Shown piece after piece: positions 6,305 to 63,498 of a stretch of 64,000 bases of DNA. A model generated the notes under the pieces. That model was not told the origin of the DNA, did not search any database, and saw nothing but the letters and a program-made list of their open reading frames with translations. A program made the position numbers and the translations under genes. Within the stretch, counting starts at the first letter, position 1; every line of letters begins with the position of its first letter. The stretch spans positions 62,001 to 126,000 of the forward strand of contig CAJXSR010000004.1 of assembly GCA_913061275.1 (NCBI GenBank). Direction: 5' to 3'. Origin of the DNA: an uncultured Paracoccaceae bacterium (lineage in GTDB: Bacteria; Pseudomonadota; Alphaproteobacteria; Rhodobacterales; Rhodobacteraceae).

Positions 6305-9300
6305 TTAGTTTAGGTAAAGTAATTTACCTTCATGCGCTTTTAAACAAGTGCGTGCGGTTTGGCCGTAGATGTTTGGTGTTGCGCGTAATTCCGGGAAGAT
6401 GTTAAAAATTTCTTCGCGGGATTTTTCCCCGATTTCTGCCAATGTATAATCACCCGGATGATAACTTTCGCTTGCAGCACCTTCTGCATATATAATTTCA
6501 TGGCGGTCAAACAGGATGTGGAAATATTCAACAAATCCGTCTACCACTTGATAAACGCCGTCATTGCCCAACAGATGTTTGGCTGGCACCAAAACTTCGG
6601 ATTGGCCAAACATCAGTTCTGCCTGCATACCCGTAAACAACATACGGTGTTGGGGTGAAACAATCAGATCGCGCGTGTTCTTGACCACACCTTGTTGAAA
6701 AACAATCGGGGCGGTTTCCGCTGTTATGGGTATTTTACGTGACCCAATCCAGCGGATTTCTTTAAGCCCGTTATCACGTGTAATGACTTTGTCACCAATC
6801 TTTAAAGTTTGGATTGGTAAGTCGCCACGGTTTGTCATGATGTTTGTGCCATAAGCAAAGCAGATAAAGATGTTCTCAATTTCTGAGAATGTCAGGATCG
6901 TACCATCTTTTAATGTAGCCGTGCCTGCTTCATTGTCACCACCGCCATATACGATGTCAGTCGGGGCAAAAATACGCCCTTGTAGGTTCAAGGTATCCCC
7001 AAGTGTTTCACCACCTTCGCCACCCGTTACCGTAATACTAGTGGGCGCACCTATTAATGAGTCGACGCTGAATAAATCGTCACCATCGCCGCCTGAGGCA
7101 GTATCCCCAACGCTGAAAATTAATGTGTCATCACCTGCACCCGCGAAAAGCGTATCGGCCCCGGTGCCACCACTTAATGTGTCATCCCCAGAGCCAGTAA
7201 TAATTGTGTCATCACCAGCACCTGCATAAATTGTGGCCCCTGCGGTGTCTAATGCGGCTGAAAAATCATCATCACTGGCGGTCAGGTCAAACCGTTCAAT
7301 CCCTGTGAATGTGGCTGTATCAGAGCCATCCGTGAATATACCTGTCTGATCGGCATTATAAGTAACACTGACCCCTGATGATAGGAATGTGGCATCTATT
7401 GTATCTTCGTCAAGACCGCCCGTAGAGGTGCCTTCACCGCCTGCGATAGTGTCGTTGTCAAACCCGTCATTCAGGATGATTAAATCTGCGTCATCGCCAC
7501 CATCTATCGTATCAGCACCAGTGCCGCCTTCAATCGTGTCCTGGCCTGCACCACCTGTTAGGGTATCGGCCAGATTTGTGCCCAGAATACTGTCACTACC
7601 AGCCCCTGCATCAACACTTATCGCAGATGATAAAGAGGCTGTGGCGTCGAAGGTATCGTCATTATCTGATAATATATATGCTTCAATACCCGTATACGCA
7701 GCCGTATCGCCACCACTGACCGCCGTTCCTATTTCATCAGTAGTAAGCGTTACATTTACAGAAGTTGTCAGGTTAGACGTATCTAATGTATCAAAATCCG
7801 TACCTGTTGAGATTAGCTCGCCACCGGAAATGATATCGTCACCAAATCCATCGGATAAGACAATCGTATCGGCGTCATCGCCGCCATCGACTGTGTCAAT
7901 ACCTGCGCCGCCATCTATTGTGTCTTGGCCAGCACCCCCCAACAGGCTATCTGCGGTCGCTGTGCCCGTAATACTATCATCGCCGTCACCAGCGTTAACA
8001 GATGTGCCGGTGGTTGCAGCTGCTGAGCCATCAAACGTATCAGCTTGAGATGATAGAACAAATTTTTCAATTCCATCGAATGTAGCGGTATCCGCACCCA
8101 ATGTGGCGGTACCTGCTTCGTCGCCAGTTAATGTAATATCGACGCCCAATGAAAGTGCCGAGGCATCCAGTGTGTCACTGTCTGCGCCACCCGATGTAGT
8201 ACCCTCGCCACCTGTTATTGTATCGTTGCCAAAATTATCCGTCAGTAATATGGCATCGGCGTCATCACCTGTGCTGATTGTATCCGCACCGGTGCCGCCA
8301 TCGATGAAATCCTGACCTTCATCACCTGTCAGGCTGTCATCTGCATCGGTACCTATTAGGCTGTCGATGCCCAAACCACCAATTACAGTAGCGCCAGATG
8401 TAGAGGCAAGTTGGCCGTCAAACGCATCACCACCATCTGTCAGGATAAAACTTTCAATACCAGAAAATGTTGCGACATCAACGCCGTCGTTGATATTGCC
8501 TGTTTCATCCGCTGATAAAATAACGTTCACAGCAAGGGGCAGGGCAGAGACATCTAATGTGTCATTATCAATCCCACCTAATGTGGTGCCTTCACCACCA
8601 AATATCACATCTGCTTCATAGCCATCGGTTAAGATGATCGTATCGGCATCGTCGCCTGCATCTATTGTGTCAATTCCAGCGCCACCATCTATGGTGTCTT
8701 GACCCGTGCCACCAAGAATGCTGTCATCAAAATCGGTACCTGATATACTATCACTACCCGCACCGGCATCAACAGATACACCCAATGTGGTAGCCGCTGT
8801 TGCGTCAAACGTATCGTCTTGCGCGGATAATACAAAATTCTCAACGTCAGTAAAAGTTGCGGTATTGGCACCAGAGGTTGCAGCACCTGCTTCATCACCC
8901 GAAAGCAGGATAGATATGGCATCTGTCAGTGTGCTTGCATCAAGCGTATCTTCATCAGTCCCACCGCTGCCTGCGTCAATACTGTCAGTTCCGTACCCGT
9001 CGGATAAATGAATTGTATCTTGATCGTCACCGGCAAAGATCTGGTCATCGCCGCCACCTGCATCTATTGTGTCACTGCCTGTACCTGCATCAATAAGATC
9101 AGCAGCACTACCGCCAATGATCGTATCTGCACCAGCACCAGAAAACAGTGTCATCGATGCGGAACTGGCAGAGCCGTCTACCGTGTCATCCTGACCAGAT
9201 AAATTAAACCCTTCAACGCCTTGGAATACGGCACTGGCGCCGCCGTTTGTTATTGTACCAGCTTCATCACCGCTGAATGTCAGGTCAACGGCATTGGTGG

Positions 9301-39707: not shown

Positions 39708-40625
39708 TTAGAAAAAGTTCCCACTTGATTTTTCCAATAGCTCTTTGGCCAATTTTTCGCCTAATGCAGGCCCGTCTGATATGGGGCCGGAAATCTGACC
39801 ACTGACCTGATCTGATCCATCAATGCGCAAAATTTGACCCTGTAGCGTTAAGTGGTCATTATTCAATGTTGCCAACCCCGCAATAGGTGTTTGGCAGGAA
39901 CCATCAAGGGCTTTCAAAAAAGCGCGCTCTGCGACTAATCTGTTGAAGGTTTCAGTATCGGCAATGGTTGCCAGCATATATTTCATGTTTTCATCTGTGG
40001 CGCGCCGTTCAATTCCGATGGCGCCTTGGGCAACTGCTGGTAATAACTCGTCTGTATCGATGGCTGATTGCGCAACATGTGTATTATCCAAGCGGATCAA
40101 GCCTGCCATTGCCAGAAACGTTGCATCGGCAACGCCTTCGGATAGTTTACGTAAACGGGTTTGCACATTCCCCCTAAACTCAACCACATTTATATCTGGG
40201 CGACGATTAAGGATTTGGGCGCGTCTTCGTAAGCTACTTGAACCTAATTTTGCACCGATTGGCAAATCGGCGATGGATTTATACTTTAAGGATACAAAGG
40301 CATCTCGTACATCTTCGCGGGGCAAGTAACAATTAAGCAGTAAACCCGCGGGTTGCTTAACAGGCATGTCTTTCATTGAATGTACGGCCATATCAATACT
40401 ACCGTCTAGTAAAGCGTCTTCTATTTCTTTGGTAAACAGGCCTTTGCCGCCTATTTCACCTAATGGGCGATCTTGAATACGATCCCCCGTTGTTTTTATT
40501 ACAACAATTTCAAAATTATGTTCTGTCAGCCCATGTGCTGCCATTAGACGATCACGGGTTTCATAGGCTTGGGCCAGTGCCAAAGGGGATCCACGGGTGC
40601 CGATTTTGTATACTGGTTGCGTCAT
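39708..40625 (-). CDS. hemC: Porphobilinogen deaminase
   Basis: 305-residue cytosolic enzyme joining four porphobilinogens into hydroxymethylbilane. Motifs: [36 protein letters not shown], and the dipyrromethane-cofactor Cys C244 in [11 protein letters not shown]. Divergent from hemE with ~80 bp between, so both heme genes share a control region. Confidence 0.95.
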
Positions 40626-55849: not shown

Positions 55850-55924
55850 GGGTCATTTCCTTTCGGTGTGAACCCATGTAAAATAGCACATTCTGCTATA
55901 ACGTGCTTTGATATAGATCAGAGT

Positions 55925-56179
55925 TTATGCAACTTCTGTAATTGTATAATTACGTGGTAAGCCTGCGGTGATTTCTGCCCAAGGCGAGGTGCTTGCACGG
56001 GTTTGGTGTTGGTCAAAGGCCGCGCGATCAACAAAAGTTTCTGCCACCAAAAAACGCCCTTGAATATCAGGGCAAGGGGTTACTTCAAATGACAGGCATC
56101 CAGCTTCAGCGCGCGTAAGCGCTATATGGTCAATCAAGGCTTTGGCCACAGCTTCAATACGGTCAGGTGTTACGTCCAT
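55925..56179 (-). CDS. ABM-domain protein (putative quinol monooxygenase)
   Basis: 84 residues as written, an antibiotic-biosynthesis-monooxygenase ferredoxin-like fold (DHIALTRAEAGCLSFEVTP, FLVAETFVDRAAFDQHQTR). The open frame extends upstream as I-H-K-I-Q-L-S-G-Y before M-D-V, and family members begin with this extra beta strand. No ATG, GTG or TTG stands there; ATA at 56206 is the only position that would restore it, with AGG about 9 nt upstream. The start is therefore uncertain. Confidence 0.75.
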   Translation of the reverse strand: MDVTPDRIEAVAKALIDHIALTRAEAGCLSFEVTPCPDIQGRFLVAETFVDRAAFDQHQTRASTSPWAEITAGLPRNYTITEVA

Positions 56180-56363
56180 ATAGCCTGAAAGTTGGATTTT
56201 ATGTATAACTATAACCTATCCCCATTTAATAATTGGTAGAACTTTGTTCTATACTTAAAAGTTATTTATCTGCATAGAGATTGTAATAGTTGTGTCATCT
56301 ATTTATCGAAAGCGTTTAGATTATTCGCTAATTGAGGTAGACATTTACGCGCCGAATTCTTTC

Positions 56364-57353
56364 TCATTCACCTAACTTTAACCAATCTATCTCATCAACT
56401 CTTTGAGAAAAGAATTTTGCACCAGATAGAGTATGGTGTCCTCTATCATAATAATTTTTACTAAGATTTTGTTCAACTGCAGAACATATCTTTGTTTCAT
56501 TATTACAAACGTAATCCATTCTGTTAAGGGTTTTTGCACCTGCCGCTTCTGAAATTCGCTCAACCATTTTATTGATATCGGATCCTTTGTCAGCATCTCG
56601 TTCCTCAAGGTAGTATTCAAAATAGGCTCGGTTAACGCGTAAAACAGTGCCACTTAGTGTCATTGAACTCTTAAATGAATTTTGCACCACTACATCAATT
56701 AAACTAAAGCCACTTGCTTCACCTGAAAATTCAAATATATTTTTAACTACGATTGGCGTTTTGTTTTCTTGAATTATTCTGTCGAGTACATATTTTAACT
56801 TTTCAACATCATTTACATTGATTCTAGAAGCAATAATAACGTAGTCAGAGGCATGATAATTCGGGCTATTCCATAGAGAATAGCTTGAAGACAAGTCACT
56901 TATTTGTGCGCCGTATCGTGCAACTTGGTATTTACTTTGTACGGTCTCAGAGTTGAAAAGAATATTAAATACATCTTTTGAATGTGAGTTTCCAACGACA
57001 AGTATATTGCGACGTTTATCTGGTTGCACAAACCATTTTTTTTCATCAAAGTCATTATTTTTTACGCCATAGCTTTGATTGTCAGAAAGCTCTCTTAATA
57101 TGCCCCATGATTTTTTTTGTAGAAGCTTATTATCACGTACATACTCTCCAAAGGTTATAGAAGCATTCGCAGGATGAAATATCCCTGGATTTATTTCTTT
57201 ACTGAACTTCCACCCTAAGACGCCAATTACTGATAATAAAATCAAACCAGAAACGCTGAAGCTAAACATGGCTTTTTTGCCAATGAAACCCCGATTTCGA
57301 AAAGGCGACTCGACAAATTTCCAGCTTAAAAATGCGACTAACAATGTCATCAC
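56364..57353 (-). CDS. Acyltransferase (OafA/YrhL type), C-terminal SGNH half of split gene
   Basis: 329 residues: end of the membrane domain (MTLLVAFLSWKFVESPFRNR) and the periplasmic SGNH-like domain, with block I VVGNSHSKD and the block near the C-terminus DRGHHTLSGAKF. In one-copy reading of the 10-bp repeat at 57392-57411, this part is in frame with the gene upstream to form one ~645-residue protein. As sequenced it lacks a ribosome binding site of its own and is probably not made. Confidence 0.75.
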   Translation of the reverse strand: MMTLLVAFLSWKFVESPFRNRGFIGKKAMFSFSVSGLILLSVIGVLGWKFSKEINPGIFHPANASITFGEYVRDNKLLQKKSWGILRELSDNQSYGVKNNDFDEKKWFVQPDKRRNILVVGNSHSKDVFNILFNSETVQSKYQVARYGAQISDLSSSYSLWNSPNYHASDYVIIASRINVNDVEKLKYVLDRIIQENKTPIVVKNIFEFSGEASGFSLIDVVVQNSFKSSMTLSGTVLRVNRAYFEYYLEERDADKGSDINKMVERISEAAGAKTLNRMDYVCNNETKICSAVEQNLSKNYYDRGHHTLSGAKFFSQRVDEIDWLKLGE

Positions 57354-57391
57354 TGAAGCGAAAAGGAAGGTTGAGTCAGTGGGTTCAAAAA

Positions 57392-57411
57392 AATAAACTC
57401 TAATAAACTCT
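57392..57411 (-). repeat. 10-bp tandem duplication breaking the acyltransferase gene
   Basis: Two exact copies of AATAAACTCT (plus strand), followed by a partial third copy (AATAAAC). Coding strand: TTTATTAGAG repeated. With two copies the frame reads F-I-R-V-Y-stop. Deleting one copy gives F-I-R-V-Y-F-F-E-P-T-D-S-T-F-L-F and continues into the SGNH half. Confidence 0.93.
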
Positions 57412-58299
57412 AATAAACGCGAATATAGGTTGATGCCATAAGTAGGCAGAGTAGCTAATCAACCCAATACCTACAAACAGCTTCGTGCTTAACAGTTTAG
57501 CGGTTAGCGTTTCTTTTCCAGAAAATAGAACCAATAAGACGACACCGACTACTGGAACTAAAGCATAAACACTGGGAAACGGTGTATTTTTATCGTAAGC
57601 GAAGATAGCAAACAAGATTGCCGCTAATCCTAGCAGAGATAAAGCATTGTTAGCTTTCACTCCACTTTTGTGCGCTACAAATGCAGCAATCGAGCCTGCA
57701 AGCAGTTCCCAAGCGCGTGTTGGTGCCAAATAGAAATTAGCTGATGGTTCATTTCGCCAAGCCCATTCACTTAATGCTAAGCTGATTGCTGCAAACACAA
57801 TAATCATCCAAAACACCCTGTTCTTACCAAATCTCCATGCTACGAATAGGAATATTGGAAAAAGTACGTAGTACTGTTCTTCAACGGCTAAGCTCCACGT
57901 ATGCAGCAATGGTTTATTTTCAGATGCTGCGCCAAAATAGCCACTTTCCAGCCAAAACAGAATGTTAGATGCAAACAAGTTGACCGCTACAATGCTTTGC
58001 GAAAAATCCTTCATCCGATCTGGTAGCATCCACATCCAAGCAAATGGGAGACACACAAGCATAACAAAGAAAAGCGCTGGTAAAATTCTTCGGGCACGCC
58101 GCTCGTAGAAGTTAATTATACTAAACCGGTCGTTTTCCATATCTTCAATAAGGATTGTTGTAATCAGATAGCCACTGATTACAAAGAATACATCAACACC
58201 AACAAAACCCCCACTAAACACCTCAAATCCTGCGTGGAATAAGATGACTGGGACGACAGCAAGGGCACGTAAACCATCAATTTCGGCACGGTATTTCAA
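57400..58299 (-). CDS. Acyltransferase (OafA/YrhL type), N-terminal membrane half of split gene
   Basis: 299 residues: the Acyl_transf_3 domain with about ten helices. Hallmarks are YRAEIDGLRALAVVPVILFH (catalytic His region), RRARRILPALFFVML, and HTWSLAVEEQYYVLFPI. Such enzymes O-acetylate surface polysaccharides. The frame stops at TAG caused by the 10-bp duplication just before the last membrane helix and the SGNH domain. Whether this truncated membrane domain is functional is doubtful. Confidence 0.85.
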   Translation of the reverse strand: MKYRAEIDGLRALAVVPVILFHAGFEVFSGGFVGVDVFFVISGYLITTILIEDMENDRFSIINFYERRARRILPALFFVMLVCLPFAWMWMLPDRMKDFSQSIVAVNLFASNILFWLESGYFGAASENKPLLHTWSLAVEEQYYVLFPIFLFVAWRFGKNRVFWMIIVFAAISLALSEWAWRNEPSANFYLAPTRAWELLAGSIAAFVAHKSGVKANNALSLLGLAAILFAIFAYDKNTPFPSVYALVPVVGVVLLVLFSGKETLTAKLLSTKLFVGIGLISYSAYLWHQPIFAFIRVY

Positions 58300-58575
58300 A
58301 AATAGTAATCCTTAGTTAGATAGGCTTAGAAAAAGCGATCAGGTTAATTTGGTTTTGGGTTTACGTCCTTCAATTAACGAATTTTCAGCGCCCTAGGCGT
58401 AAAGCCAACCTGATTTGTAATCCTTATGCAAATTATTCATTTCTATAAATGCCACCACTTATATGTGTTGGTTTAGTATCATAGCATATATAAAATATGC
58501 AAAGGAAAAACCCAACACAGTTACAAACTAAGCTTTTTATTTAAGTAACTATGAAATCAAATGGTTATATTATAA

Positions 58576-60138
58576 TTATTCCCACTCGATCGTACCTGGA
58601 GGTTTGGATGTTATGTCATAGGTGACACGGTTAATGCCTTCGATTTCATTTATGATGCGTGTTGCGGTTTCACCCAAAAATTCGTGGGTGAACGGATAAT
58701 AATCCGCAGTCATACCATCGACAGAGTTCACTGCGCGCAAAGCACAGGCATAATCATAGGTGCGCCCATCGCCCATCACGCCCACGGTGCGAACGGGCAG
58801 AATGGCAACAAAGGCTTGCCAAATTTCGTCATAAAGCCCGTGTTTGCGGATCTGATCGATATAAACAGCATCAGCCTTGCGTAATATCTCTAGCTTGGTG
58901 CGGGTTATTTTGCCAGGGCAACGAATGGCAAGGCCCGGGCCAGGGAAGGGATGGCGGCCAACGAAGCTGGCAGGTAAACCTAATTCGCGTCCCAAAGCGC
59001 GTACTTCGTCTTTGAATAACTCGCGTAACGGCTCAACCAGTTTCAGGCCCATTTTTTCAGGCAATCCGCCAACATTATGGTGTGATTTGATTGTCACCGA
59101 CGGGCCACCTGAAAAGCTAACGCTTTCGATCACATCGGGGTATAGAGTTCCTTGGGCTAAAAACTTGGCCCCGCCCACAGATTTCGCATGTTTGTCAAAG
59201 ACATCAATAAACAGACGTCCAATGATTTTGCGTTTGGTTTCGGGGTCTGATTGTCCATCTAACTCGCCTAAGAAAAGTTCTTGTTCTGCGGCGTGGATCA
59301 GCGGCATATTATAGTGATCGCGGAACATGGTGACGACTTCTTCTGCCTCACCTTGGCGCAGTAATCCGTGGTCTACGAAAACGCAGGTTAACTGATCACC
59401 GATCGCCTCATGTATCAAGACGGCTGCAACTGAACTATCAACGCCACCAGACAGACCGCAGATGACTTTTTCGTCGCCAACTTGGGCGCGAATTTCTGCG
59501 ATGGCTTGTTCGCGGTAAGCACCCATCGTCCAATCGCCGGTGAAGCCAGCTAATTTAACGAAATTTTCATACAGTTTTGCGCCATTCGGTGTGTGATGCA
59601 CTTCAGGATGAAATTGCACGGCAAAGAAATTGCGTGAAAGATCGGCTGTAATGGCGAAAGGCGCGTTGGGCGAGGTGCCATATACATTGAACCCGCCGGC
59701 AAGTTTAGAGACGTGATCGCCGTGGCTCATCCAGACTTGTTCTTTGCCTTCTGAAAACCAGCCGTCAAGAATGTTTAGCTTGTCGTTTTCGGGTGTCACA
59801 AAGGCGCGGCCAAATTCGGCTGTGCCGTGACCACGTTCCACTTTACCGCCAAGTTGGTGCATCATTACTTGTTGGCCGTAACAGATGCCCAAAATAGGCA
59901 GGCCCATATCAAACAGGGTTTGCGGTGCGCGTGGGGCGTTTTCATCGAATACGCTAGCGGGCCCCCCCGAAAGGATCACGGCCTTTGGCGCAAAGTCTTT
60001 GATAAAAGCTTCATCGACATTTTGAAACGGGTGAATTTCGCAATAGACATGCAATTCGCGCAGGCGACGCGCGATAAGCTGCGTAACTTGGCTGCCAAAG
60101 TCGATGATAAGAAGGCGGTCATGTGTTTGTGTGCTCAT
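58576..60138 (-). CDS. guaA: GMP synthase (glutamine-hydrolysing)
   Basis: 520 residues. Class I amidotransferase with nucleophile C86 in GICYGQQVM and His-Glu in [13 protein letters not shown] pyrophosphatase with [11 protein letters not shown]; dimerisation domain ending IEWE. Converts XMP to GMP. Divergent from the MttB-family gene. Confidence 0.95.
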
Positions 60139-62339: not shown

Positions 62340-63498
62340 GTGCAAGAAGTACCACAACAAAATACGCCTGAAGCCTATAAATCTGGTTTTAATACGACCG
62401 CCACCAGTAAAAAAATCGATATACGCGAATACATTGACCATGTTGAAGCGAATACATTGACCATGTTGAAAATGGTATCCCATTACGCATCATTGCAAAA
62501 AGAGATGGGGTGCATCCATCTACAGTTTTACGACGTATTCGCAAAATAGAAGCAAAACGTGACGATCCGTTATTAGACGAAATTCTGACACGTATCAGCA
62601 TAAAATCAAAAACCAATTCCAATAAAAATGAGGTCTGTATGAATACCTATATAACCCCAACAACATGCCAAAATGAAATAACCGAAAAGAAAGATGTAAT
62701 ACGAATACTACGACGGTTATGTGAAAAGAATGCTTTCTTGGTGATGGCCTTATCTTTGCCCAAGGCGGTTGTGATGCGTGGCACTGGTAAATCACAGGTT
62801 CGATCTGCGGTTTTATCACGTGAGTTGGGGCAAAGTTTACTGATTAAAGGCTGGATAGAGCGTACAGGTGGTGGAAAATTAAATCGCTATGAGGTTACAA
62901 GTGCTGGGCGGGCAAGTTTGAAACGAATGATTTATGAGCAGCTTGAAACCCAAAAAGCGACAGGATTTGCAGAAGCACCTAACGCATTTCAGGAACAACA
63001 TCGTGAATGGGGTGAACGATATGTAACATCCGAAGGTGATGCGCGTAGTCAAAAGATAAAAGTTAACTTACGCGAAAGTCCGATAAATATGTTGGGCCGC
63101 AAAAAAAGGTAAAGATGGTAAACCATTTCTACAAAACGAGCTGTTACATGCAGGTAGAGCGTCTGCGTGAAGACTTTGAATTGGCACAGCTAGGCCCGCG
63201 CGTAACCCAGAACTGGGATCGTTTTTTAGTGGGGTCTGATCGTGGTAACTTTGGCTCAAATGAAGGTGGTGGATCATCACAAGCCCAAAACCGATTACAC
63301 AAAGCTTTGAAAGCACTTGGGCCAAGGCTAGGCGATATTGCTTTGCGGTGTTGTTGTTTTTTAGAAGGAATGGAAGCTGCAGAAAAACGAATGGGCTGGT
63401 CAGCCAGGTCAGGTAAAATAGTTCTGCGCATAGCCTTGCAACGTTTACGGATGCACTATGATGAAGCTTATGGCGGTGTCTCTGATCGGATAGGTTAA
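62340..63498 (+). pseudogene. DUF6456 protein gene with three frame-disrupting lesions
   Basis: Readable in three frames. GTG at 62340 follows AGGAGGG. Frame 1 reads to Y-I-D-H-V-E; a 23-bp duplication then shifts the frame. Frame 2 (from 62510, V-H-P-S-T-V-L-R-R-I-R-K) has the helix-turn-helix and DUF6456 middle. At A7 (63101-63107) one A too many shifts into K-D-G-K-P-F-L-Q-N-E-L-L-H-A-G, and one extra A in GGTAGAGCG (about 63156) shifts into E-R-L-R-E-D-F-E-L-A-Q-L-G to the end, S-A-R-S-G-K-I-V-L-R-I-A-L. Each segment remains well conserved, so decay is recent or the reads contain errors. Confidence 0.85.
62425..62470 (+). repeat. 23-bp perfect tandem duplication in the DUF6456 gene
   Basis: The 23-nt unit starting GCGAATACATTGACC occurs at 62425-62447 and again at 62448-62470. 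Removing one copy gives Y-I-D-H-V-E-N-G-I-P-L-R-I-I-A-K-R-D-G-V-H-P-S-T-V in one frame, which fits the HTH region of the family. Confidence 0.95.

Follow-up and report, generated by a model that had tools for sequence, protein, structure and literature searches.

A 10-bp tandem duplication splits an AT3-SGNH acyltransferase gene downstream of guaA and probably marks a loss-of-function allele

A gene for an O-antigen-acetylase-like AT3-SGNH acyltransferase is divided between two reading frames at a 10-bp tandem duplication within the window, the whole stretch of 64,000 nucleotides from an uncultured Paracoccaceae bacterium that was analysed here (Table 1). Gene content and relatives likewise point to a marine alphaproteobacterium, probably of the Rhodobacteraceae. 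The allele is probably a loss-of-function form, knocked out by one slippage duplication, and this simple mutation is ranked first among the possible explanations, with a true on/off switch at the same repeat ranked second. A break by tandem duplication is an ordinary type of off-mutation, and this enzyme family already offers an example (see below).

Table 1. Coordinates of the split acyltransferase gene and its surroundings in the window
Feature	Position	Strand	Basis
Perfect tandem repeat, 10-bp unit, 2.7 copies	57392..57418	-	TRF, sequence and simulations
5' piece: 299-aa ORF for the AT3 acyltransferase membrane domain, from a TTG to a TAG inside the repeat	57400..58299	-	PF01757
3' piece: SGNH domain, preceded by TMH11 and the last part of TMH10, in one open frame	56364..57458	-	PF19040, stop-to-stop frame
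Variable slot holding the split gene, between guaA and an 84-aa ORF	56180..58575	-	Synteny
guaA (GMP synthase), intact, upstream neighbour	58576..60138	-	Pfam

The first-pass annotation of this DNA had described a duplication followed by a partial third copy, and that description stands. The repeat (AATAAACTCT) has two perfect copies at 57392-57411 and a partial third copy of 7 bases that reaches 57418; TRF assigns it a period of 10, 100% matches and a score of 54. Match runs of at least 17 at periods of 7-40 were absent from all 200 simulated windows (first-order Markov, or dinucleotide, versions of the real one), as against two in the window itself, namely this repeat and another at 62425-62470. 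Perfect tandem duplications with a period of at least 9 number 17 in 464 kb of the same genome (the window and a 400-kb sample made up of 20 stretches, 20 kb each), and the period is not a multiple of three in four of the 17. A near relative (G015) has five such duplications in 340 kb, and the period of every one is a multiple of three.

The repeat coincides with a change of frame: the AT3 ORF reaches its stop codon there, and the SGNH frame, which differs from it, continues for a total of 364 open codons. The first listed start in the latter, a GTG at 57353, gives an ORF of 329 aa (56364-57353, minus strand). It had been proposed that the duplication splits a single AT3-SGNH acyltransferase, and the domain content agrees, in that one piece corresponds to the AT3 half of the known fusion and the other to its SGNH half. 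The 5' piece matches PF01757 over profile positions 2-294 of 326 (E 6.2e-31), and the 3' piece matches PF19040, the SGNH domain fused to AT3 domains (E 1.4e-9). The AT3 piece carries the R-X10-H motif at residues 11-22 (R11, H22), and the SGGFVGVD and RRARR of its translation correspond to the GG-F/Y-XGV-D loop and the RXXR motif as these are given in PMC7448272. The SGNH catalytic motifs, GNSH and DRGHHTL (S, D..H), are present in their separate frame. With the catalytic motifs intact on both pieces, the break looks recent. Enzymes of the OafA/OafB type have both domains in one polypeptide, whereas in this assembly they occupy two frames, and the gene is filed here as a broken AT3-SGNH allele, not as a working member of the family. 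Searches for solved structures with the sequences of both pieces gave no useful match, the one weak match having an E value of 0.11.

The position of the split bears directly on function. It lies before TMH10, within the AT3 domain and not at a domain border, the TMH assignment of the 3' piece being taken from alignment with relatives and from the OafA topology. The conserved glutamate after TMH10 (VESPF, an E-x-PF motif), TMH10-11 and the SGNH domain would all be missing from the 5' product, because they sit in the downstream frame. In Salmonella OafA both the AT3 and the SGNH domain are required. The glutamate that follows TMH10 does not vary among the fusions and is described as important, with an E325A mutant retaining 4.84% signal (PMC7448272). 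Loss of enzyme activity in the split allele is thus likely. One could instead imagine that the arrangement works, either as two genes whose separate products reassemble or through a ribosomal frameshift within the repeat, and the long open downstream frame is what one would expect in that case. However, the cut through the AT3 domain argues against it, no Shine-Dalgarno-like run is evident by eye before the GTG at 57353, and the T7 run is positioned after the TAG, so that slippage at T7 cannot bypass the stop codon. Furthermore, the split is absent from the relatives examined, the few broken ones being broken at other places. A functional two-gene or recoded arrangement is therefore extremely improbable.

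Homologous loci had been named as one comparison to make, and the proposal would fall if relatives all carried two separate proteins with the same junction. Instead, in 75 of 80 relatives (the best 80 of 271) a single frame extends for 600 aa or more from the start of the match, and separate proteins as the normal state are therefore rejected. One of the five exceptions ends at a contig edge (L073), three show frame breaks (L052, L094, L068), and the frame of the last (L065) differs in running into a sequence that resembles what we take to be an IS3-type transposase. AT3-SGNH genes therefore occur broken elsewhere, in other ways. The closest relative among these 80 (L021, from IMCC14465 of the PS1 clade) is 83% identical in AT3 and 45% in SGNH and has a single frame of 644 aa. 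The SGNH piece has matches in 36 of 394 family genomes, its own included; outside its own genome, 41 of 42 rows lie in frames of at least 558 aa and the remaining one (G065) in a frame of 440, although in many of them the match covers no more than a short stretch of the SGNH piece. Matches to the AT3 piece occur in 15 of 33 genus genomes, counting its own and weak matches. A further AT3-SGNH gene, in the genus relative G016 (L102, 5270-5330), is frame-broken at a T-rich tract.

The frame arithmetic of the first-pass annotation, in which removal of one copy joins the two frames, can be checked against the spacing between conserved motifs on either side of the junction. The distance that separates SW..(I/V)E.PF from the end of WHQP is 93 nt in 82, 90 nt in 4 and 96 nt in 3 of 89 relative rows. 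In the window it is 100 nt, or 90 plus one 10-nt unit, and the arithmetic therefore holds. These 89 rows, which were not de-duplicated and include the paralogue from the same genome (93 nt), come from 112 examined; the other 23, among them the window's own copy, are without both motifs.

Because the evidence comes from a draft assembly of 56 contigs, an assembly or sequencing artefact, with an uninterrupted gene in the true genome, must be weighed. Damage close by lends this some weight: a DUF6456 gene 5 kb away (about 62340-63495) contains a perfect 23-bp tandem duplication at 62425-62470 and also two single-base insertions near 63100-63155, three lesions in all. Three genus relatives have this gene as a single ORF, and in a fourth its two halves share one frame. 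Tandem duplications therefore break two genes within 5 kb. Generally poor assembly is nevertheless not supported. Among 39 entries compared with genus relatives, which do not include the split gene, only three are broken, representing two genes (DUF6456 twice and one on contig 12), and the four out-of-frame duplications counted above are few for 464 kb. In the screen for frame breaks, inspection put most of the flagged rows down to antisense frames or to artefacts upstream of the start, with a direct check for only one of them, ORF 39708-40625 (presumably hemC). A 27-bp array is also far below normal read length. Taken together, an artefact is very unlikely. The entry on contig 12 (L165, 6103-7415) shows a possible frame break against two relatives and could be two paralogous genes.

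The split gene occupies a slot with a GC content of 36.8%, compared to 45.3% in the rest of the window, and the 84-aa ORF on its far side is presumably ABM-like. In 32 other genus genomes, guaA is full-length or nearly so in 29 (79-96% identity), partial in two and represented by only a weak match in one, and near relatives largely share the gene order between guaA and PPK2 (20 loci). The slot itself measures 26-1668 bp in the eight relatives measured and holds other cargo or none, at 26-40 bp in three of them (G016, G012, G019) and 109-1668 bp in the other five. In one relative (G021), a different single-frame AT3-SGNH gene, 45% identical, lies directly downstream of guaA, with its other flank unmatched. 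Relatives of the AT3 piece occur on 375 plasmid records, the best at 65% on a Rhodobacteraceae plasmid, and on 64 phage records, a distribution that fits mobility; seven relatives, at 42-54%, are found in viral contigs. The ten best of the 64 phage matches are 52-54% identical, and seven of these ten are annotated as O-antigen acetylase. The resemblance to the O-antigen acetylases of Pseudomonas phages such as PAJU2 extends over the full length of the AT3 piece, to which the comparison applies; in contrast to those genes, the split gene has no recognised phage genes among the neighbours examined. Nor was an integrase noticed among the neighbouring ORFs, and when 58480-58720 and 55850-56500 were compared for att repeats, no exact word of 10-12 bases occurred in both, in either direct or inverted orientation. 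Viral carriage of the repeat allele was also considered and rejected, with no exact match in viral contigs. The gene was probably acquired by horizontal transfer.

These observations can be assembled into a simple history. A gene for an OafA-like AT3-SGNH O-acyltransferase acting on surface sugars would have entered the slot downstream of guaA. Extra unit aside, the site retains a 7-bp direct repeat, GTTTATT, spaced 10 bp apart in AT-rich codons before TMH10, and this repeat could have primed replication slippage, with a single event adding one 10-bp unit. Translation from the TTG would then halt inside the repeat, giving a product that ends before TMH10; the downstream frame has no evident Shine-Dalgarno sequence, and acyltransferase activity would be lost. 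The first-pass annotation also held that such loss would alter surface polysaccharide acetylation. Analogy speaks for this, both from OafA, with its need for the two domains, and from the phage acetylases among the best matches; the enzyme probably decorates cell-surface sugars, its predicted substrate.

The nearest precedents come from pathogens. Salmonella Typhimurium oafA encodes the same two-domain kind of enzyme, an AT3-SGNH abequose O-acetyltransferase, and a change in the copy number of a 7-nt repeat within it turns O-acetylation off (PMC9426603, PMC9705250). As here, those alleles leave two smaller pieces through a copy change of a short repeat whose unit is not a multiple of three. 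The direction and the evidence differ: in Salmonella, a unit is lost, the event is recurrent and the phenotype was observed, whereas here a 10-bp unit has been gained in one genome. The LOS O-acetyltransferase encoded by Haemophilus influenzae oafA is likewise an AT3 enzyme, and its phase-variable expression is treated as established and reversible in the review PMC9558356; at the present locus, switching is only possible.

These precedents raise the question of whether the split gene is itself a phase-variable (contingency) locus, as had been suggested, in which the 10-bp copy number flips and toggles surface O-acylation, for example under phage attack. The repeat has the features expected of such a locus, being within a gene whose halves are otherwise intact and having a unit that is not a multiple of three, and the 7-bp direct repeat would persist at the lower copy number. 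A related AT3-SGNH gene from a Nitrospinales MAG (L097, 6664-6689) has (AGCC)x6.5 in its open frame, which looks like a classic contingency repeat with a tetranucleotide unit. On the other hand, 2.7 copies make a short array, and no alternative allele was found in the repeat scan, which covered viral contigs (0 matches). A scan of 110 relative genes gave four repeats above threshold with a unit that is not a multiple of three, none at this junction. Among the papers listed by one literature search on slippage phase variation, none contained the word Rhodobacteraceae. The suggested switching is possible, but a contingency locus is a doubtful reading beside that of a single slippage mutation.

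The other acyltransferases of the same genome also bear on this choice. The genome has two matches to PF19040 and three to PF01757, the third of the latter in a 368-aa frame without PF19040. The only other AT3-SGNH fusion found, on contig 12 (L101, 5619-7616), is 70% identical in AT3 and is interrupted by one in-frame TAA within the match; this codon (6960-6962) immediately precedes the GDS motif of the SGNH domain. The interruption of both fusion acyltransferases suggests that this strain either can do without such surface acylation or is under selection against it. If slippage did act as a switch, the interrupted sibling would point to an un-acylated population state: a marine alphaproteobacterium would keep surface O-acylation under slippage control, and its population would have been caught un-acylated, perhaps under selection from phages for which the sugar must be acylated. 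This wider scenario is rather unlikely. The sibling is broken by a nonsense codon and not by a repeat, which counts against switching, and this codon, along with the three-lesion conserved gene 5 kb from the split gene, fits plain pseudogenisation as well.

The split gene extends beyond the enteric pathogens the kind of short-repeat break in an AT3-SGNH enzyme by which O-antigen acetylation is altered in Salmonella. If its copy number should prove variable, the locus would lend itself readily to tests of whether phages drive surface switching in marine bacteria.
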